A stretch of 64,000 nucleotides of DNA from Haloferax litoreum (GTDB lineage Archaea; Halobacteriota; Halobacteria; Halobacteriales; Haloferacaceae): the NCBI RefSeq assembly GCF_009674605.1, contig NZ_WKJO01000001.1, forward strand, positions 930,001 to 994,000, in the 5' to 3' direction. Under the pieces are notes generated by a model. It had not been told where the DNA came from and ran no database searches. It saw only the letters and a list, made by a program, of their open reading frames with translations. Shown in pieces: positions 36,853-46,536 of this stretch (position 1 is its first letter; the number at the start of each line of letters is the position of its first letter). Both the position numbers and the translations under genes were made by a program.

Positions 36853-36969
36853 ATGACACTCATCGAATGGCTCGCCATCGGCCTCGTCGTGCTCGTCGTC
36901 CTCGCACTCGTGGTCGCGCTGTTCGACGAAGAACTCCTCTTGGAACTCGCCGTCGAGGTGCTCGACTGA
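36853..36969 (+). CDS. Single-span 38-residue membrane peptide
   Basis: MTLIEWLAIGLVVLVVLALV opens a 38-codon gene, followed by VALFDEELLLELAVEVLD. One hydrophobic span (residues 6-23) is followed by an acidic amphipathic tail. Codon use is GC-rich at third positions. A TATA-like AATACG lies about 40 nt upstream (36812-36822). It is 72 nt from the antiporter and may be an accessory small membrane protein. Confidence 0.6.
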   Translation: MTLIEWLAIGLVVLVVLALVVALFDEELLLELAVEVLD

Positions 36970-36988
36970 GGCGAAGGTTGCGTCCCCG

Positions 36989-37000
36989 AAAGAATTTAAT
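36989..37000 (+). promoter_or_regulatory. Promoter of the putative arginine leader
   Basis: AAAGAATTTAAT is a TATA-like box 40 nt from the leader ATG at 37029. The same AAAGAATTTA decamer recurs at 37206 before argG, 38 nt from that ATG. So leader and argG each have a near-identical promoter core at nearly the same distance. Confidence 0.5.
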
Positions 37001-37028
37001 AGGGACGATGTTGTAGGGTCTCACAACC

Positions 37029-37115
37029 ATGGCGACTCGCAGCACCTTCGCCACTTTTGCCCCGCTGCGAGCCGCTGCTGTCCGACGACGACGACCGGCC
37101 CCTCAGGGCCAGTAA
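37029..37115 (+). CDS. Putative arginine-sensing leader peptide, 28 codons
   Basis: An open frame from ATG 37029 to TAA 37113-37115 encodes 28 residues with six arginines, including four CGA codons in a row (37083-37094) preceded by GCC GCT GCT GTC. Immediately after the run, GGCCC (37097-37101) and GGGCC (37106-37110) form a hairpin around CTCA that overlaps the last codons. A U-rich stretch CAGTTTTCTT follows at 37153-37162. The frame precedes argG and the whole Arg cluster and has its own TATA box. The arrangement resembles bacterial amino-acid attenuators; function here is inference. Confidence 0.45.
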   Translation: MATRSTFATFAPLRAAAVRRRRPAPQGQ

Positions 37116-37163
37116 TATCATATCCTTCGGGACACGTCGAAATTGCTAATCTACAGTTTTCTT

Positions 37164-37216
37164 GCCTATAGGCATCTCTACCACTTAATTTCACAAATTG
37201 AATGCAAAGAATTTAT
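37164..37216 (+). promoter_or_regulatory. argG promoter with upstream palindrome
   Basis: GCCTATAGGC (37164-37173) is a perfect 10-bp palindrome. The TATA-like box AATTTATTTAG ends near 37220, about 25 nt before the argG ATG at 37244, so argG is likely leaderless from this promoter. A repressor on the palindrome, or readthrough from the upstream leader transcript, could both regulate the cluster. Confidence 0.45.
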
Positions 37217-37243
37217 TTAGTTACTCCTTCCACAGTCAGGTAC

Positions 37244-38464
37244 ATGAAGAAAGTCGCACTCGCGTTCTCCGGCGGACTGGACACCACAGTCTGCGTCCCA
37301 ATCCTCGAAGAAGAATACGGCTACGACGAAGTCATCGGCGTCACCGTCGACGTCGGTCAGCCCGAAGAAGAGTTCGACGAGGCCTACGAGACGGCCGAGG
37401 CACTCGGACTCGAACACTACGTCATCGACGCGAAAGACGAGTTCGCACAACTCTGTCTCGACTCGGTGACCGCCAACGCGGACTATCAGGGCTATCCGCT
37501 CGGGACAGCGCTCGCACGCCCGGTCATCGCTAACGCCATCCTCGACCTCGCACAAGAAGAGGGCTGTGACGGCATCGCCCACGGGTGTACGGGCAAAGGC
37601 AACGACCAACTCCGCTTCGAAGCGGTCTGGCGCGCCTCCGACCTCGAAGTCATCGCCCCCGTCCGCGAGATGGGCATGACCCGCGAGTGGGAAATCGAGT
37701 ACGCCGCCGAGAAAGACCTGCCCGTACAGGGCGGCAACGAGGGCGTCTGGTCCATCGACACGAACCTCTGGAGCCGTTCCATCGAGGGTGGCAACCTCGA
37801 AGACCCCGGCTACGTCCCGCCGGAAGACATCTACGAGTGGACCGACCAGCCCTCGGGTGAGACGGAACTCATCGAGATTACGTTCGAAGACGGCTACCCC
37901 ATCGCCATCGACGGCGAGGAGATGGAGGCCCTCGAACTCATCTCGTACCTCAACGAGAAGGCCGGTTCCTACGGCGTCGGCCGCACGGACATGATGGAAG
38001 ACCGCATGCTCGGCCTGAAGGTGCGCGAGAACTACGAGCACCCGGCCGCGACGACGCTCCTCAACGCCCACAAGGCGCTCGAAGGCCTCGTCCTCACGAA
38101 AGAAGAGCGTGACTTCAAGGCCACAGTCGACAACGAGTGGTCCCAGAAGGCCTACGAAGGCCTCATCGACGCCCCCCTCGTCGGGGCGCTGGAAGCCTTC
38201 CTCGAAAAGACCCAAGAGCGCGTCACGGGCACCGTGACCATCAAGTTCGAGGGCGGACAGGCCCGCCCGGTCGGCCGCGAATCCGAGTACGCCGCGTACT
38301 CCGAGTCCGCCGCCTCCTTCAACACGGAGACGGTCGACGGCATCGAGCAGGCCGACGCCACGGGCGTCGCCAAGTACCACGGCTTCCAGGCGCGTCTCGC
38401 CAACCAGAACGCGAAGACGAAGCAGAAGCCCGAACTGGCCGCAGACGGCGGCAGCGACGAGTAA
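37244..38464 (+). CDS. argG: Argininosuccinate synthase
   Basis: A 406-residue ligase that joins citrulline and aspartate using ATP. The N-terminal ATP loop is KKVALAFSGGLDTTVCVPIL; GCTGKGNDQLRFE and NEGVWSIDTNLWSRSIEGG are signature blocks. ATG 37244 is preferred because the ATP loop starts within a few residues and a TATA box precedes it; the frame upstream to 37202 is AT-rich promoter. argH follows after 1 nt. Confidence 0.97.
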   Translation: MKKVALAFSGGLDTTVCVPILEEEYGYDEVIGVTVDVGQPEEEFDEAYETAEALGLEHYVIDAKDEFAQLCLDSVTANADYQGYPLGTALARPVIANAILDLAQEEGCDGIAHGCTGKGNDQLRFEAVWRASDLEVIAPVREMGMTREWEIEYAAEKDLPVQGGNEGVWSIDTNLWSRSIEGGNLEDPGYVPPEDIYEWTDQPSGETELIEITFEDGYPIAIDGEEMEALELISYLNEKAGSYGVGRTDMMEDRMLGLKVRENYEHPAATTLLNAHKALEGLVLTKEERDFKATVDNEWSQKAYEGLIDAPLVGALEAFLEKTQERVTGTVTIKFEGGQARPVGRESEYAAYSESAASFNTETVDGIEQADATGVAKYHGFQARLANQNAKTKQKPELAADGGSDE

Positions 38465-38465
38465 G

Positions 38466-39932
38466 ATGACAGGCGAGGACGGTGACTCCGAGGGCGTCAT
38501 TCGCCGGGACCGCTTCAGCGGCGGCCCCGCCCGCGGGTTCATGTCGAGCCTCGCGGCCGACGAACGCATCTTCGAGGCCGACCTCGCCGTCGACCGGGCG
38601 CACGTCGTGATGCTCGCGGCACAGGACATCATCGAGTCCGACGTCGCCGCCGACATCCTCGCCGCACTGGATGAGGTAGAAGCAGCGGGTCACGACGCAC
38701 TGTCCGGCGGCGAAGACGTTCACGAAGCCATCGAGGCCGCCGTCATCGATATCGTCGGCCCCGACGGCGGGAAGATGCACACCGCACGCTCGCGCAACGA
38801 CGAGGTTGCCACGTGCATCCGCTACCGTCTTCGCGACGACGTGCTGGACGCCCTCGACGCCGCACTCGCACTCCGCGAGTCACTCGTCGAGACGGCGAGT
38901 GAGCACACCGAGACGGTGATGCCCGGCTACACGCACCTGCAACCCGCCCAACCGACGACGGTTGCGCACTTCCTGCTCTCGTACGAACGGGCGGTCGCCC
39001 GCGACTGCGCCCGCCTCATGTGCGCGTACGAGCGTCTCAATCAGTCTCCCCTCGGGTCGGCCGCCTTCGCGGGCACGCCCTTCGACGTGAACCGCGAACT
39101 CGTTTCCGACCTGCTCGGGTTCGACAGCGTGATGGAGAACTCGATGGACGCCTCGGCGACCCGCGACTTCCTCGCGGAGACCCTGTCGGCGCTCACGACG
39201 CACGCAATCACGCTCTCGGGACTCGCCGAAGACCTCGTCATCTTCTCGAACAAGGGCTTCGTCGAACTCTCGGACGATTACTCTTCGACGTCGTCTATCA
39301 TGCCGCAGAAGAAGAACCCCGACACGATGGAACTCGTCCGTGCCGTCGCGGGCGACGCCGTCGGGGAACTCACCGGCCTGATGACGACGCTGAAGGGACT
39401 GCCGCGCGCGTACAACCGCGACTTACAACGCGCGCACAAGCACGCCTTCCGCGCCGTCGACGACGTGTCCGAAGCGGCCGCCGTGGCCGCCGGTGCCGTC
39501 GCCTCGGCGACGTGGCCCGAAGACGAACTCGCCGCGGCCGCCGGAGACGGGTTCTCGACGGCGACGGGCGTCGCAGACCTGCTGGCGATGGCCGGCCTGC
39601 CGTTCCGCACGGCCCACGAAGTGGTCGCAGAGGCGGCCGCTCGGTCCTCGGGAACGCCCGACGTGGCAACACTTGACGCCGTCGCTACGGACGTATTAGG
39701 TGAGTCTCTCTTTACGCACGTGACAGCAGACGCCGTCGAAGCCGCGCTCGACCCGACCGAGAGCGTGGCGAGTCGCGATTCCGTCGGTGGGCCCGCGCCC
39801 GCCGCCGTGGAGGCGACCCTCTCGACGGCGCGTGACGACCTGTCGGCAGACGCCGCGGCAGTCGCGGACGCCCGCGACACACTTACCGCCGCTGCCGACG
39901 AACTCGACGAAGAGGTTTCGAGCTATGTCTGA
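38466..39932 (+). CDS. argH: Argininosuccinate lyase
   Basis: A 488-residue lyase of the fumarase/aspartase superfamily releasing arginine and fumarate. The signature SSIMPQKKNPDTMELVRA is intact, with HTARSRNDEVAT and GYTHLQPAQPTT as the other two conserved regions. The start is 1 nt after argG. Its end overlaps an Arg/Pro-rich open frame by 8 nt. Confidence 0.97.
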   Translation: MTGEDGDSEGVIRRDRFSGGPARGFMSSLAADERIFEADLAVDRAHVVMLAAQDIIESDVAADILAALDEVEAAGHDALSGGEDVHEAIEAAVIDIVGPDGGKMHTARSRNDEVATCIRYRLRDDVLDALDAALALRESLVETASEHTETVMPGYTHLQPAQPTTVAHFLLSYERAVARDCARLMCAYERLNQSPLGSAAFAGTPFDVNRELVSDLLGFDSVMENSMDASATRDFLAETLSALTTHAITLSGLAEDLVIFSNKGFVELSDDYSSTSSIMPQKKNPDTMELVRAVAGDAVGELTGLMTTLKGLPRAYNRDLQRAHKHAFRAVDDVSEAAAVAAGAVASATWPEDELAAAAGDGFSTATGVADLLAMAGLPFRTAHEVVAEAAARSSGTPDVATLDAVATDVLGESLFTHVTADAVEAALDPTESVASRDSVGGPAPAAVEATLSTARDDLSADAAAVADARDTLTAAADELDEEVSSYV

Positions 39933-40173
39933 GGTATCCACCCCCGTCGCTGGCCTGCCGCGACCGCCGCGAGCGGTTGCGCCGCGACCACCGCGACGAC
40001 CGGTCTCGGTTCCGCGACGGCCCCGACCGGAACCGCGACCACGACCACGCCCGACGGCGGGGACGGCCCGACCGGTTCCGCGACCGGTTCCGTCCCCGGT
40101 GTTGGGTGAGGGTGGCAACCGAGCCCGACACGTTGTTCGACCGACCACCTCGGTCGGCCGATTCTCCCGATAA
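39925..40173 (+). CDS. Arg/Pro-rich open frame between argH and lysW
   Basis: From an ATG at 39925, eight bases before the end of argH, an 82-codon frame runs to 40173. It holds 18 arginines and about as many prolines (for example VPRRPRPEPRPRPRP). A second frame through the same DNA is also Arg-rich (Arg/Asp), because the DNA is a degenerate repeat of GACCGCGACC units. CGGTTCC/GGAACCG and the tandem GACCGGTTCCGC copies allow strong hairpins. It may be a translated Arg-rich leader in front of lysW, or only low-complexity spacer. Confidence 0.35.
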   Translation: MSEVSTPVAGLPRPPRAVAPRPPRRPVSVPRRPRPEPRPRPRPTAGTARPVPRPVPSPVLGEGGNRARHVVRPTTSVGRFSR

Positions 40174-40223
40174 CCGCCGAGAGATACTTCTTTACGCTGT
40201 TTTTTGCTTCGTAATTTTCGACG

Positions 40224-40234
40224 GATTTAATACC
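40224..40234 (+). promoter_or_regulatory. lysW promoter
   Basis: GATTTAATACC is a TATA-like box ending about 25 nt before the lysW ATG at 40259, so lysW probably starts a leaderless mRNA of its own. The preceding T runs at about 40198-40206 and 40214-40217 (TTTTTT and TTTT) could end the argGH transcript. Confidence 0.6.
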
Positions 40235-40258
40235 ATCCGTGGTCCAGCCAAGGATGTA

Positions 40259-40438
40259 ATGAGCGACACCATCACTGCGGAAGACCCGCTGAGCGGAGAA
40301 GAAATCGAGCTGCCGTCCGACGTCGAGGTCGGCGAGATTATCGACAGCCCCGCCACAGGCGCGGAGCTGGAAGTCGTCTCGCTCGACCCCGTGATTTTGG
40401 AAGAGGCACCTGAACTCGAAGAGGACTGGGGAGAGTAA
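40259..40438 (+). CDS. lysW: Amino-group carrier protein LysW (zinc-site-less variant)
   Basis: A 59-residue acidic carrier. Its C-terminus EAPELEEDWGE ends in the invariant EDWGE whose last Glu carries the growing amino acid through an isopeptide bond. GAELEVVSLDPVIL matches the core of Thermus LysW. In that protein two CxxC knuckles hold zinc; here the aligned spots read DPLSG and DSPATG, and there is no cysteine at all. Fold stability presumably comes from acidic residues and salt. It is followed after 2 nt by argX. Confidence 0.93.
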   Translation: MSDTITAEDPLSGEEIELPSDVEVGEIIDSPATGAELEVVSLDPVILEEAPELEEDWGE

Positions 40439-40440
40439 GC

Positions 40441-41316
40441 GTGCATATTGGACTGCTCTACTCCCGGATTCGCCGCGACGAGAAGTTGCTCCTCAACGAG
40501 CTTCGTGAGCGCGGCCACGAGGTGACGAAGATAGACGTTCGGAAAGAGCAGTTCGACCTCTCTGAGCCGCCGGAAGCGTTCGACGGCCTCGACATCGTGG
40601 TCGACCGCTGTCTGGCGACGAGCAGGAGCCTCTACATCACGCGCTTCCTGCAATCGTACGGCATCCCCGTCGTCAACTCCCACGAGACGGCCGACATCTG
40701 CGCCGACAAGGCGAAGAACAGTCTCGCCCTCGCGGACGCGGGTGTGCCCACGCCGAACACGAAAGTGGCGTTCACCGTCGAATCGGCGATGGACATCGTC
40801 GAGGAGTTCGGCTACCCCTGCGTCCTCAAGCCCGTCGTCGGGTCGTGGGGTCGCCTGATGGCCAAAATCGACTCCGAGGCGGCCGCCGAAGCCATCCTCG
40901 AACACAAGGCCACGCTCGGGAACTACGAGCACAAGGTGTTCTACATTCAGGAGTTCGTCGAGAAACCGGGCCGCGACATCCGCGTCCTCGCCGTCGACGG
41001 CGAACCCATCGCCGCGATGACTCGCTCGTCGGACCACTGGCTCACCAACGCCGCGAAGGGTGCCGACGCCGAGGCGTTCGAACTCGACGCCCGCGCGAAA
41101 GAACTCGTGAAGCAGGCGTCCGACGCAGTCGGCGGCGGCCTGCTCGGCGTGGACCTCATGGAAACTGGTGATGACTACACCGTCCACGAGGTCAACCACA
41201 CTGTCGAGTTCAAGGCGCTCAACGACGCCGTGGACGTGGACGTTCCCGCGAAGGTCGTCGATTGGCTGGAGGCGAAAGTCGACAGCGAAAAGACGCTCGC
41301 GGAGGTTTCGGCGTGA
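40441..41316 (+). CDS. argX: Glutamate--LysW ligase ArgX (RimK/LysX family ATP-grasp)
   Basis: A 291-residue ATP-grasp ligase that attaches glutamate (or alpha-aminoadipate) to the LysW C-terminus. The start HIGLLYSRIRRDEKLLLNEL, then KPVVGSWGRLMAKI, YIQEFVEKPGRDIRVLAVDG and VNHTVEFKAL with the Mg-binding Glu and Asn, are LysX/ArgX blocks. The start is GTG at 40441; its stop overlaps the GTG of argC. With no lysine-specific genes nearby, the arginine role is favoured; dual use is possible. Confidence 0.93.
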   Translation: MHIGLLYSRIRRDEKLLLNELRERGHEVTKIDVRKEQFDLSEPPEAFDGLDIVVDRCLATSRSLYITRFLQSYGIPVVNSHETADICADKAKNSLALADAGVPTPNTKVAFTVESAMDIVEEFGYPCVLKPVVGSWGRLMAKIDSEAAAEAILEHKATLGNYEHKVFYIQEFVEKPGRDIRVLAVDGEPIAAMTRSSDHWLTNAAKGADAEAFELDARAKELVKQASDAVGGGLLGVDLMETGDDYTVHEVNHTVEFKALNDAVDVDVPAKVVDWLEAKVDSEKTLAEVSA

Positions 41317-42356
41317 GCGAGGCACTCACTGCGGGCGTCGTCGGTGGCTCTGGGTTCACCGGCGGCGAACTGCTCCGCCTCCTCGACGGCCACCCGAACT
41401 TCGAGATTGCACAGGCCACGAGTCGCTCCTACGAGCGCAAGACCGTCGGCCACGTCCACCCGAACCTTCGTCACCTCGACCTGCGCTTTACGTCTCCGGA
41501 GGACCTCGAATCCGTGGACGTACTGTTCACGGCGACACCTCACGGTGTCTCGATGGAACACATCGACGCGTTCCAAGACGCCGCCGACACCGTCGTCGAC
41601 CTCTCCGCCGATTTCCGTCTCTCCGAAGAAGCACAGTATGACGAGTGGTACGACGGGCACATCTGCCCCGAGTACCTCGACAAATCGGAGTACGCACTTC
41701 CCGAACTGAACCGCGAGAACCTCCCCGGTGCGGACCTCATCGCGGCGGGCGGGTGTAACGCGACGGCGACGATTCTCGGGCTGAAACCGCTCTTCGACGC
41801 CGACATCCTCTCCGGCGACGAGCAAGTCGTCGTCGACGTGAAAGTCGGGTCGTCCGAGGGCGGCGCGGGCGCGAGCAAAGCATCCTCACACGCCGAACGC
41901 TCGGGTATCGTTCGTCCCTACGCACCGACCGGCCACCGTCACGAGGCCGAAATCGAGGAGTACCTCGGCGTCTCTGTCTCCTTTACCGTCCACGCGGTGG
42001 ACATGGTCCGCGGTGCGGCGGCGACCTGTCACGTCTTCCCCGACGGACCAGTGTCGAAAGGCGACATGTGGAAGGCCTACAGAGGTAGCTACGGCGACGA
42101 ACCCTTCATGCGCACCGTCGCCGGCGGTGGTGGCGTCTATCGCTACCCCGAACCGAAGTCCGTCGCGGGCACCAACTTCGGCGAAGTCGGGTTCGAAATC
42201 GACCCCGCGAACCGACGCCTCGTCGTCTTCTCGGCCATCGACAACATGATGAAAGGCTCCGCCGGGCAGGCGGTCCACGCCGCCAACATCGCACTCGACT
42301 TAGAGGAGACTGCCGGCCTCGACTTCACCGGCTTCCACCCAATCGGCTCACCCTGA
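41313..42356 (+). CDS. argC: [LysW]-glutamyl-phosphate reductase
   Basis: A 347-residue NADPH-dependent reductase. The Rossmann motif is TAGVVGGSGFTGGELLRLL and the catalytic Cys lies in AAGGCNATATILGLKP. VGSSEGGAGASKASSHAE and the C-terminal NMMKGSAGQAVH are ArgC/LysY signatures. The start GTG 41313 overlaps the argX stop; the frame stays open upstream but inside argX. Confidence 0.95.
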   Translation: MSEALTAGVVGGSGFTGGELLRLLDGHPNFEIAQATSRSYERKTVGHVHPNLRHLDLRFTSPEDLESVDVLFTATPHGVSMEHIDAFQDAADTVVDLSADFRLSEEAQYDEWYDGHICPEYLDKSEYALPELNRENLPGADLIAAGGCNATATILGLKPLFDADILSGDEQVVVDVKVGSSEGGAGASKASSHAERSGIVRPYAPTGHRHEAEIEEYLGVSVSFTVHAVDMVRGAAATCHVFPDGPVSKGDMWKAYRGSYGDEPFMRTVAGGGGVYRYPEPKSVAGTNFGEVGFEIDPANRRLVVFSAIDNMMKGSAGQAVHAANIALDLEETAGLDFTGFHPIGSP

Positions 42357-42410
42357 GCGCACCGTCCCCGAACACATCACTCCCAGACTGACCACCGTAC
42401 CACTTCGACT

Positions 42411-43340
42411 ATGACAGGATACACACGCGAGGAACTGCTCGCGGCACACGAACAGCTCGTCGACAACGAGGCGAACCTCATCGCAGATGGGGGGAAAGAA
42501 CCACCGGTCGTCGTCAAGATTGGCGGCGCGAAAGCCGTCGACCCGGAGGGTGCCGTCGCAGACGTGGCGCACCTCGTCGCAAACGGCACCGACGTCGTCG
42601 TCGTCCACGGCGGGTCGACCGCCGTCGACGAGACGCTCGAAGAACTCGGCGAGGAACCCACCTACGTCGAGTCGCCCTCGGGCGTGACCGGCCGCTTCAC
42701 CGACGAGCGCACCATGGAGGTGTTCTCGATGGTGATGCCCGGCAAACTCAACACCGACCTGACGGCGCTGTTCCGCGAGGCGGGGGTCGACGCGCTGGGC
42801 CTCTCCGGCGTCGACGGCGGCCTCCTCACCGGCCCGCGCAAGTCGGCGGTTCGCGTCGTCGAAGATGGGAAGAAGAAAATCAAGCGCGGCGACCACTCCG
42901 GGAAGATTACCTCGGTCAACGCGCCGCTCCTCGAAACGCTCCTCGACGGCGGCTACACGCCTATCGTGACCGTCCCGATGCTCGCCGACGACGGCGTCCC
43001 GGTCAACGCGGACGCCGACCGTGCGGCAGCAGCAGTCGCCGGCGCACTCGGTGCGAGACTCGTCGTCCTCACCGACGTGAAGGGCGTCTACGCCGACCCC
43101 GACGACGAATCGACGCTCATCGAGACGGCCGACACGCCCGAGGAGTTCGAAGCACTCGAAGCGGCCGCAGAAGGCTTCATGACGAAGAAAGTCATGGCCG
43201 CGAAGGAGGCGCTCGACGGCGGGGCCGCGGAGGTCATCGTCTCGGACGCGAACCTGAACGACCCCATCGTGACGGCGCTCAACGGCGGCGGAACGCACGT
43301 GACGCCCGGTGCACTGGTCGAAGCGACGGAGGCTGAATGA
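42411..43340 (+). CDS. argB: [LysW]-glutamate kinase
   Basis: A 309-residue amino-acid kinase that phosphorylates the gamma-carboxyl of LysW-bound glutamate. VVVKIGGAKAVDPEG is the ATP-binding start, DVVVVHGGSTAVDETLEELG the substrate region, and PVNADADRAAAAVAGALGA the nucleotide region. The N-terminal 35 residues are an extra acidic helix before the first strand, common in haloarchaea. A 54-nt gap to argC has no evident promoter. Confidence 0.94.
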   Translation: MTGYTREELLAAHEQLVDNEANLIADGGKEPPVVVKIGGAKAVDPEGAVADVAHLVANGTDVVVVHGGSTAVDETLEELGEEPTYVESPSGVTGRFTDERTMEVFSMVMPGKLNTDLTALFREAGVDALGLSGVDGGLLTGPRKSAVRVVEDGKKKIKRGDHSGKITSVNAPLLETLLDGGYTPIVTVPMLADDGVPVNADADRAAAAVAGALGARLVVLTDVKGVYADPDDESTLIETADTPEEFEALEAAAEGFMTKKVMAAKEALDGGAAEVIVSDANLNDPIVTALNGGGTHVTPGALVEATEAE

Positions 43341-44476
43341 TGTCGGGGTTCGTCTTCAACGAGAAACCAATCACCATCGAATCCGGTGAGGGACCGTACC
43401 TCTATTCGGACGACGGGACCGAGTACCTCGACTTCGGCGCGAGTTACGCCGTCGCGGCACTCGGCCACTCGCACCCGGCGGTCACCTCTGCCATTCAAGA
43501 ACAGGCCGCGAAGTTGACCTACGTGCAGGCGTCGTACCCCGTCGAGGTTCGCACCGAACTCTACGAGAAACTCGCCGCGCTCGCACCGGGCGACATCGAG
43601 AACGTCTGGCTCTGTAACTCCGGCACCGAGGCTAACGAGGCGGCGATGAAGTTCGCCCGCTCTGCGACCGGTCGCCAGAAGATTATCGCCACGAAGCGCG
43701 CGTTCCACGGCCGCACCCTTGGCTCGCTCGCGCTCACGTGGAAACAGAAGTACAAGAAGCCGTACGAACCGGTCGCCGGCGGCGTCGAGTTCGTCACGTA
43801 CGGCGACGAAGAGGAACTGGCCGAAGCCGTAGACGACGAGACGGCCGCCGTCTTCCTCGAACCGATTCAGGGCGAAGGCGGCATCAACCCCGCTGCGACG
43901 GAGTACCTGCAAACCGCCCGCGACCTGACCGAAGACGCCGGCGCGGCACTCGTCTTCGACGAGATTCAGACCGGTATCGGCCGGACCGGGTCGCTGTGGG
44001 CGTGCGAGAACGTCGGCGTCGTTCCCGACATCCTGACCAGTGCGAAGGGTATCGCCAACGGCCTCCCACTCGGTGCGACGCTCTGTGCCGACTGGATTGC
44101 CGACGGCGCGGCCTCTCACGGGTCGACGTTCTCCGGCGGCCCTGTGGTCTGCGCCGCGGCGAACGCCACGCTCGACACCATCGTCGAGCAGGATATTCCC
44201 GGTCACGCCGCCGAAATCGGCGACTACCTCACGTCGGGACTCGAAGCGGCCGTGGAAGAACACGACCTGCCGGTCCGCGAGGTACGCGGCGACGGCCTCA
44301 TGATTGGCGTCGAGGTCAAGCGCGGCGCGAACCGCACGCTGAAGCACCTCGCGCTGTCCGAGCAACTCCTCGCGCTTCCAGCGGGACGGACCGTCGTGCG
44401 GTTCCTCCCGCCACTCATCATCGACGAGGAACACGCAGACTACGCGGTGGACGCCATGACGAGCGTGTTGTCATGA
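43337..44476 (+). CDS. argD: [LysW]-glutamate-semialdehyde aminotransferase
   Basis: A 379-residue class-III PLP aminotransferase producing LysW-ornithine. NSGTEANEAAMKFAR, FHGRTLGSLALTWK, LVFDEIQTGIGRTG and the Schiff-base lysine region LTSAKGIANGLPLGA are all present. The double ATG at 43337 overlaps the argB stop; its own stop overlaps argE. Confidence 0.95.
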   Translation: MMSGFVFNEKPITIESGEGPYLYSDDGTEYLDFGASYAVAALGHSHPAVTSAIQEQAAKLTYVQASYPVEVRTELYEKLAALAPGDIENVWLCNSGTEANEAAMKFARSATGRQKIIATKRAFHGRTLGSLALTWKQKYKKPYEPVAGGVEFVTYGDEEELAEAVDDETAAVFLEPIQGEGGINPAATEYLQTARDLTEDAGAALVFDEIQTGIGRTGSLWACENVGVVPDILTSAKGIANGLPLGATLCADWIADGAASHGSTFSGGPVVCAAANATLDTIVEQDIPGHAAEIGDYLTSGLEAAVEEHDLPVREVRGDGLMIGVEVKRGANRTLKHLALSEQLLALPAGRTVVRFLPPLIIDEEHADYAVDAMTSVLS

Positions 44477-45558
44477 ACGCCGGAACCACACACGACGGCC
44501 ACGCCGACACGGACGCCGACCTCATCGCCGGGAGCGACTGGGTCGAGGCGCGTCGTCTCCTCTACGACATGGTGTCGACGCCGTCCGTCTCGGGCGACGA
44601 AGAAGACGCCGCCGAGGTGCTGAAGGCGTTCTTCGAGGCGCACGACCGCGAGGTCTGGATAGACGAGGTCGGCAACGTCCGCGCACCCGCCGACGATTCC
44701 GTCCTCCTCACGTCGCACATCGACACCGTCCCGGGCGAGATACCAGTGAAGGTTGACGACGGCGTTCTCTGGGGTCGCGGGAGCGTCGACGCGACCGGCC
44801 CCCTCTGTTCGATGGCCGCCGCCGCCGTCGAAACAGGCGTCTCGTTCGTCGGCGTCGTCGGCGAAGAGACCTCGTCGCGCGGCGCGTGGCACCTCGTCGA
44901 GGACCGCGAAGAACCCGGCGCTGTCGTCAACGGCGAACCCTCGGGATGGGACGGCGTGACCCTCGGCTACCGTGGATTCCTCTCGGGAACGTACGTCTCG
45001 ACCAGTGAGTTGGGCCACTCCTCGCGCCCCGAGGACAACGCCATCCAATCGGCCGTCGCGTGGTGGTCGCGCGTCGCCGACTTCTTCGACGAAGAGTACG
45101 ACGGCGTCTTCGACACGGTGACGACGAAACCCGTGAACTTCGACGGCGGTCCAACCGACGATGGCCTCGCCGTCGAGGCGACGGTGGACGTGCAGTTCCG
45201 CGTCCCACCTCGTCTCACCATCGACGACGTACGCGAAGTCGCCGAGGGCGAACTCACTCGCGGGAGCGTCCACTGGAACAAGCCCATCCCGCCTGTGATG
45301 ATGAGTCCGCGCACGGAAGTCGCGCGGGCCTTCCGCGTCGCCATCCGCGGCGTCGGTGGGACCAAGCCACGCTTGCTCCGCAAGACCGGAACCAGCGACA
45401 TGAACATCTTCGCCGGCACGTGGGACTGCCCGATGGCGACGTACGGCCCCGGCGACTCGGACCTCGACCACGCCCCCGACGAACGCCTCGAACTCACCGA
45501 GTTCGACAACTCCATCGACGTGCTGGTGGAGGTCTGCGAGACACTCGCGGACGACTGA
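44473..45558 (+). CDS. argE: [LysW]-ornithine hydrolase (M20 metallopeptidase)
   Basis: A 361-residue zinc peptidase of the ArgE/LysK type that frees ornithine from LysW. Metal and catalytic residues are visible in LLTSHIDTVPG, LWGRGSVDATGPL and GVVGEETSSRGAWHL. The late block LLRKTGTSDMNIFAGTW with YGPGDSDLDHAPDE fits LysK. The N-terminus has about 20 acidic extra residues. ATG 44473 overlaps the argD stop. Confidence 0.94.
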   Translation: MNAGTTHDGHADTDADLIAGSDWVEARRLLYDMVSTPSVSGDEEDAAEVLKAFFEAHDREVWIDEVGNVRAPADDSVLLTSHIDTVPGEIPVKVDDGVLWGRGSVDATGPLCSMAAAAVETGVSFVGVVGEETSSRGAWHLVEDREEPGAVVNGEPSGWDGVTLGYRGFLSGTYVSTSELGHSSRPEDNAIQSAVAWWSRVADFFDEEYDGVFDTVTTKPVNFDGGPTDDGLAVEATVDVQFRVPPRLTIDDVREVAEGELTRGSVHWNKPIPPVMMSPRTEVARAFRVAIRGVGGTKPRLLRKTGTSDMNIFAGTWDCPMATYGPGDSDLDHAPDERLELTEFDNSIDVLVEVCETLADD

Positions 45559-45636
45559 CCCGAACCGTCGAAGACTGAATCGAGACACACAGACGACCGA
45601 GACACCGAATCGACACGGAGACACGACACTCACACA

Positions 45637-46536
45637 ATGCTCGAAACGACACACTTCACCGACATCGACGACATCAGCGCATCGGAGTTAGACCGCGTCC
45701 TCACCCGCGCCGCCGACATCAAATCCGGCGACGACGAGACGCGACTGCCCCGAGCGACGCTGGCGATGCTCTTCGAGAAACCGAGTACCCGCACGCGTGT
45801 CTCCTTCGAGACGGGTATGACGCAGTTAGGCGGTCACGCCCTCTTCCTCGGCCCCGAAGACATCCAACTCGGTCACGGCGAACCACTCTCGGACACCGCT
45901 CGTGTGCTGGGTCGCTACGGCGACGCCATCATGGTCCGCCTCTTCGAACACGAGGACCTGCTCGAAATCGCCGAACACTCCGACGCACCGGTCATCAACG
46001 GCCTGACCGACGACGCCCACCCGTGCCAGACGCTCGCCGACCTGCTCACCATCCGCGAACACGTCGGCGACTTCGACGAGGTACAGGCCGCGTGGGTCGG
46101 CGACGGCAACAACGTCGGCCAGTCGTTCGTCCTCGGGTGCGCGATGGCCGGCATCGACCTGACGGTGGCGACGCCACCGGGGTACGCGATGGACGACGAA
46201 GTCATCGCTCGGGCCGCCGAACTCGGACAAGCGCCGACGGTCACCACGGACCCCGAGGAAGCCATCGACGGCGCGGACGTCATCTACACCGACGTGTGGA
46301 TTTCGATGGGCCAAGAGAGCGAGCGTCACCAGAAACTGCAGGCGTTCGAAGGCTTCCAACTCAACGAGGAGTTGCTCGCGGATACGGACGCGAAAGTCAT
46401 GCACTGTCTCCCCGCCCACCGCGGTGAGGAGATTACCGGACCCGTCCTCGAAGGCGACCAGTCTATCGTCTGGGACCAAGCGGAAAACCGTCTCCACGCC
46501 CAGAAAGGACTCATCGTCGAGTTGCTGGACGAATAA
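45637..46536 (+). CDS. argF: Ornithine carbamoyltransferase
   Basis: A 299-residue transferase making citrulline. The carbamoyl-phosphate loop is KPSTRTRVSFE; the conserved HPCQTLADLLT, DVWISMGQE (SMG loop) and MHCLPAHRGEEIT mark the ornithine class. It lies 78 nt after argE in a GAGACAC-rich spacer without a TATA box, so it is probably read through from upstream. It converges with the SnoaL-like gene. Confidence 0.97.
   Translation: MLETTHFTDIDDISASELDRVLTRAADIKSGDDETRLPRATLAMLFEKPSTRTRVSFETGMTQLGGHALFLGPEDIQLGHGEPLSDTARVLGRYGDAIMVRLFEHEDLLEIAEHSDAPVINGLTDDAHPCQTLADLLTIREHVGDFDEVQAAWVGDGNNVGQSFVLGCAMAGIDLTVATPPGYAMDDEVIARAAELGQAPTVTTDPEEAIDGADVIYTDVWISMGQESERHQKLQAFEGFQLNEELLADTDAKVMHCLPAHRGEEITGPVLEGDQSIVWDQAENRLHAQKGLIVELLDE

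Follow-up and report, generated by a model that had tools for sequence, protein, structure and literature searches.

The short open reading frame directly before argG in Haloferax litoreum raises the question of whether it is a leader through which the arginine genes respond to arginine. In order to answer this we analysed the window, by which we mean the whole 64 kb stretch of DNA that contains the locus, and compared the region with its counterparts in other haloarchaea; the window features given below lie on the forward strand. The frame spans 37029-37115, comprises 28 codons (peptide MATRSTFATFAPLRAAAVRRRRPAPQGQ), six of them for Arg, and closes with TAA at 37113-37115. Its ATG stands ∼31 nt 3′ of a TATA-like TTTAATA (36995-37001), which together with a BRE-like CCGAAAG (36986-36992) makes up the putative leader promoter (36986..37001). 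On the length of the frame, its six Arg codons and the presence of a TATA box, as on the four consecutive CGA codons at 37083-37094 that would be the sensing codons, our reading agrees with a preliminary description made from the letters of this DNA. The hairpin reported there behind the Arg run is also present (GGCCC-CTCA-GGGCC, 37097-37110, henceforth hairpin 1), albeit 2 nt after the last CGA and not 3, and it ends 2 nt before the TAA. A G-free tract of A, C and U (37113..37128) follows, which in this genus begins 2 nt after hairpin 1, and further features are a small hairpin UCC-UUCG-GGA (37123..37132), conserved within the genus only, and a U-rich TTTTCTT (37157-37163), formerly put at about 40 nt behind the hairpin and in fact 46 nt 3′ of it, which is conserved in the genus and not class-wide.

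Searched against the covariance models of Rfam, the window leader gave no match up to E = 1, and a scan for sigma-70 promoters, which are not expected in archaea, returned nothing at the leader. As the predicted fold of the window leader is on its own unremarkable (z -1.29), the case was built on comparison. Within Haloferax the leader region is present in all 15 genomes, with DNA that is 84-99 % identical, and the frame is intact in each of these congeners, one species carrying a 3-nt insertion that preserves it. In all congeners but one near relative the leader ends in RRRRPAL, RTRRRPAL or RPRRRAL, and the TAG that follows sits in the loop of a GGCCC-TTTA-GGGCC hairpin. In H. litoreum and that near relative a change of CCCTTTAGGG to CCCCTCAGGG has removed the in-loop TAG, and the TAA 2 nt past the hairpin is used instead. 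When the whole window was scanned loosely for the leader arrangement on either strand, one match came up and the window's own leader was missed, because the in-loop TAG is gone and the stop comes just after the hairpin. Also within the genus, CTCGCAGC (37036-37043) in the leader ORF can pair with GCTGCGAG (37064-37071), and three species show a compensating change of this pairing (CTCGCAGT/ACTGCGAG), which is, as far as seen, specific to the genus.

Outside the genus, a peptide profile search gave no convincing match. As the body of the peptide is not conserved, we looked for conservation by position before argG, using the upstream regions of this gene from 115 haloarchaeal genomes that represent 61 genera in seven family groups (families f5, f9, f10 and f11 lie outside the sample). 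A leader of the same plan was found in all 115 genomes and thus in all 61 genera, in a few cases as a variant and in four with the frame assigned by hand. In a separate set of named loci, 78 of 80 were positive, including those of Halobacterium, Halococcus, Natrialba, Natrinema, Haladaptatus, Halorussus and Halobellus, and the two exceptions were from Halonotius, which has Arg-rich variants. None of the argG upstream regions of 19 relatives from outside the class carried such a leader. The peptides are 20 to 48 aa long with bodies unrelated between genera (for example MTRTRRAGPAAPVRAVRAPRPGL, MQTPATHSVATPVSVASAASFSPVRRRRPGSQ, MSHTVGTAGATSATDGIVLSRRRRRRRGL and MLTAPTTHADATVSRGLSTLVLRRRRPGR, each up to its stop), and nearly always it is the frame of the Arg run that is open from an ATG, the other two frames only rarely being so. 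The preliminary description had made its proposal depend on relatives keeping the frame and its Arg codons; this comparison finds frame, Arg codons, hairpin and position kept throughout the class. Short open frames arise readily in G+C-rich DNA, but a chance ORF is excluded by class-wide recurrence at one place, and a functional small Arg-rich protein is hard to reconcile with a body that is not conserved and a leader ORF that matches no NCBIfam model; we reject both explanations, which retain practically no probability. Judged from these comparisons, the leader arrangement is not a product of chance.

A TATA-like element lies 28-35 nt 5′ of the leader ATG in nearly all 61 genera, and leaderless mRNAs make up 72 % in H. 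volcanii (PMC4983044); taken together, spacing and prevalence point to a near-leaderless leader transcript, whose start site we infer from the position of the TATA element.

What the leaders share is a choice of codons close to the stop. Arg accounts for 35 % of the last 14 leader codons as compared with 13.6 % further upstream, and CGA makes up 193 of the 298 Arg codons in these tails (65 %) as opposed to 10 of 690 (1.4 %) in the argG bodies (Fisher p about 1e-112, to be taken as an order of magnitude since related genomes were counted as independent). Among the genes of the window, CGA is likewise scarce, at 7 of 153 Arg codons (4.6 %). Enrichment of a codon that is otherwise rare argues for selection on the rare codon itself, as would be expected of a leader that reads the charging of one tRNA, and the RNA sequence may in addition be constrained in its own right.

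The second shared element is hairpin 1, to which both the codons and the stop are tied. In 59 of the 61 genera the start of the last Arg codon is 3-5 nt away from the hairpin on its 5′ side, and in 53 the first letter of the stop codon falls within the hairpin, in the loop or the 3′ arm. Across genera the stem takes the forms GGGCC/GGCCC, GGCCC/GGGCC, GGGGTC/GACCCC and GGGGC/GCCCC; as each of these is complementary, both arms change together. Since anchoring on the hairpin itself selects for complementarity, we made a separate test in which the position was set solely by the last CGA or CGG codon and the controls were dinucleotide shuffles. The best hairpin after the run scored 7.39, against 4.44 in the shuffles (sd of the mean 0.32). 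A GGGCC/GGCCC palindrome that recurs before argG in many genera might also be a DNA operator for an argG regulator, with the ORF incidental, but its sequence varies (GGGCC, GGCCC, GGGGTC, GGGGC) whilst complementarity stays, and it is tied in-frame to the Arg codons and the stop; this explanation, too, we reject as having hardly any probability. In several lineages (L232, L249, L268, L271 and H. litoreum) the in-hairpin stop has been lost whilst hairpin and Arg codons stay, and the frame there ends just after the hairpin or further on.

A leader of the same plan, made for other amino acids, is found in the same genome before ilvB (G000:C1, ilvB at 2497251). It encodes MNQHDARLASASPQSAASAATVGAVRSLIIVGA, ending in SLIIVGA before the stop, and its codons CTC ATT ATT GTA lie directly 5′ of a GGGGC-ATA-GCCCC hairpin that contains the TAG. 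This leader is kept in eight of eight congeners. Across the class an automatic scan picked it up at 26 of 29 other loci; of the three left over, two were inspected and turned out to be related forms. Here, too, the cognate codons are scarce, ATT accounting for 35 of 603 Ile codons in the ilvB bodies and GTA for four of 1163 Val codons, but GTA also belongs to the stem. Behind the ilvB leader lies another G-poor tract, with 2.8 % G over its first 10 nt. No such leader was found before trpC, hisG or carA in Haloferax, and the arrangement is therefore not a general trait of amino-acid genes. The ilvB leader, with its Ile and Val codons, lends support to a role of the plan in amino-acid sensing. 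Two other upstream regions deserve mention. A nearly invariant stretch upstream of leuA1 (G000:C1:2495657; L330-L335) holds a short ORF, MSHNDTEDSSGSPAGRVLPGHISPTI, ∼30 nt after a TATA, which has no leucine run and appears to overlap the N-terminal region of leuA1 in another frame. Directly before leuA2 (G000:C1:406711; L338-L345) there is likewise a nearly invariant short ORF, MCSITMSEDTTPTEDRVSRRETAGCEIRRF, after a TATA, at which no stop hairpin was noted.

An arbitrary body, a covarying hairpin that contains the stop with rare cognate codons at constant spacing in front of it, a place before the operon of the same amino acid, and the repetition of this plan before ilvB together argue for a leader that reads codons, i.e. 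tRNA charging. We consider it probable (roughly 0.8), going by sequence comparison, that the frame is a cis-acting, arginine-sensing and ribosome-mediated leader of the arginine operon. The alternative of a nascent peptide that itself responds to arginine inside the ribosome tunnel and arrests translation, in the manner of the fungal arginine attenuator peptide, can draw on tails that often read Arg-Pro-Gly or Arg-Arg-Pro-Ala beside the stop. These Pro-Gly and Ala residues are, however, encoded by the 5′ arm of the hairpin, the body is unrelated between genera at lengths of 20-48 aa, selection acts on the codon CGA as well as on the amino acid, and in the ilvB leader another tail goes with the same plan, all of which leaves arrest by the peptide very improbable.

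How a codon-reading leader might act can be laid out as follows. The upstream TATA would give rise to a near-leaderless mRNA, on whose short ORF the first ribosome would work whilst RNA polymerase proceeds. Going by usual ribosome footprints, a ribosome anywhere in the Arg run would touch hairpin 1. With charged tRNA-Arg for CGA plentiful, it would pass the CGA codons, melt hairpin 1 at the stop and depart; the hairpin would then refold, the C/U-rich, G-free tract would be exposed and premature termination would be favoured, most likely via aCPSF1/FttA. With arginine scarce, the ribosome would come to a halt at the rare CGA codons, its leading edge at hairpin 1, which it would hold open, and by staying in contact with the polymerase would allow argGHX and the genes behind to be transcribed. 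In this scheme we infer the translation of the ORF, the stalling, the termination and also the direction in which the operon would respond.

Termination at the tract is favoured in this scheme on the strength of two published lines: a Rho-like action on cytidine-rich RNA has been suggested for FttA/aCPSF1 (PMC7515710), and the transcription and translation machineries, RNA polymerase included, interact in H. volcanii (PMC8576121). The tract itself is well defined, the 17 nt behind hairpin 1 having 2.4 % G, 42 % C, 30 % T and 26 % A over the 61 genera, as compared with 22.9 % G in the next 40 nt past it, and being entirely without G in 45 of the 61. Against a C-rich mode, Term-seq in four archaea found U-rich and not C-rich sequence before 3′ ends, and the C-rich mode of FttA in vivo has been questioned (PMC7515710). 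The preliminary description had likened the arrangement to a bacterial attenuator. The arginine-sensing half of this is supported by the class-wide conservation and the ilvB parallel; the termination half is less secure, as there is no U-tract behind hairpin 1, no intrinsic terminator of bacterial type in 36950-37260 and no second hairpin behind the leader that is conserved across genera (mean z -0.12), even if one can be made out by eye in some. Given these absences and the TATA that argG has of its own (see below), the termination step is putative, and a leader with FttA-dependent termination is tentative, at somewhat under an even chance.

The main rival keeps the same sensor and changes the output: the position of the ribosome would govern translation or stability of the argG mRNA instead of termination, for example by pairing of the Arg run with a downstream CCGGUUCG or CGUCG, or by shielding from nucleases. 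Besides the lack of a conserved terminator, it gains from 23 of the 61 genera in which the leader stop lies 68-159 nt before argG and no second TATA was found; barring an overlooked promoter, leader and argG must there share one mRNA. It gains further from an enrichment of CCGGTT downstream of the leader (17 genera vs 2.3 expected). Complementarity to the Arg run is modestly above dinucleotide shuffles in windows beyond the G-free tract (z -2.4 to -3.4), and a swap control for this duplex was uninformative because the runs are alike. In H. litoreum a CGUCG at 37135..37139 complements CGACG of the Arg run as a possible alternative pairing, with a low pairing probability of 0.04 in this species. 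Counting against this output, the spacing between leader and argG is long in many genera, no excess structure is found past the G-free tract, and structured leaders are seldom used in haloarchaeal initiation (PMC4983044); we regard it as less likely than not. In the other 38 of the 61 genera, Haloferax included, a TATA-like element stands 18-48 nt before argG (37212-37219 in the window, ∼29 nt 5′ of the argG ATG), which points to a second, leaderless mRNA for argG, made without passage through the leader. This second TATA, like the loss of the in-hairpin stop from H. litoreum, counts against an attenuating leader.

Set beside known systems, the codon-reading leader preferred here is closest to the bacterial attenuators. 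Like those of trp, his, leu, ilv, thr and phe, it precedes the operon for an amino acid as a short ORF whose codons for that product gather close to the stop, next to a hairpin; unlike them, it is archaeal, starts near-leaderless, has its stop inside the hairpin, and shows, as far as found, neither a conserved antiterminator/terminator pair nor a U-tract terminator. No arginine leader is known to us among the classical bacterial ones. The uORF of fungal CPA1/arg-2, the arginine attenuator peptide, also precedes an arginine gene; its sequence is conserved and arrests ribosomes at high arginine, whereas the haloarchaeal leader keeps only codons and hairpin. In actinobacterial ilvB leaders (PMC1262725) Ile, Val and Leu codons overlap a candidate hairpin, as they do in the haloarchaeal ilvB leader and, with Arg codons, in that of argG, but the actinobacterial hairpin leads into poly-U and the haloarchaeal one into a G-free A/C/U tract. 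Candidate mycobacterial cys leaders (PMC1262725) and the Rho-dependent tnaC type share with the argG leader cognate codons near the stop, the lack of an obvious terminator and a pyrimidine-rich tract behind, a possible site for a termination factor, which is Rho in the bacterial cases and for which aCPSF1/FttA is the archaeal candidate. The C-rich, G-poor tract behind the leader that marks Rho-like leaders was found over the 61 genera, and is thus conserved, whereas the mycobacterial polyY motifs are not (PMC1262725).

A 2021 paper held that attenuation and antitermination were not known in archaea, and our literature search, which took in the time since and had several relevant papers outside its reach, found none described for the archaea. 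By its mode of action the argG leader would resemble the bacterial attenuators; it lacks their intrinsic-terminator feature and is, as far as we found, new to the archaeal domain. A wider proposal falls just short of even odds, namely that attenuation by rare-codon stalling and by termination through aCPSF1/FttA, a eukaryote-like factor of CPSF73 type, operates throughout the class, serves arginine and the branched-chain amino acids at the least, and arose independently of the bacterial attenuators. With an argG leader across a whole archaeal class and a sister leader before ilvB, the question of archaeal attenuation becomes directly testable in the genetically tractable relative Haloferax volcanii.

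The genes that such a leader would serve are arranged in one direction. The cluster opens with argG, for argininosuccinate synthase (37244..38464; above cut-off for NF010392 and TIGR00032), and continues from 38466 to 46536 in the order argH-argX-argC-argB-argD-argE-argF. Family models identify argH (38466-39932), argX (40441-41316, a LysX match), argC (to 42356), argB (42411-43340) and argD (43337-44476), whilst argE (to 45558) and argF (45637-46536) owe their names solely to ORF content and gene order. Between leader and argG, a conserved block (TGCCTATAGGCA ... GCAAAGAATTTATTTA, 37163..37219) comprises the second TATA and, ahead of it, a stretch at 37163-37200 (TGCCTATAGGCATCTCTACC...TTAATTTCA) that is a candidate operator for an argG regulator and is partly common to other genera (TATAGGCATCTCTRC).
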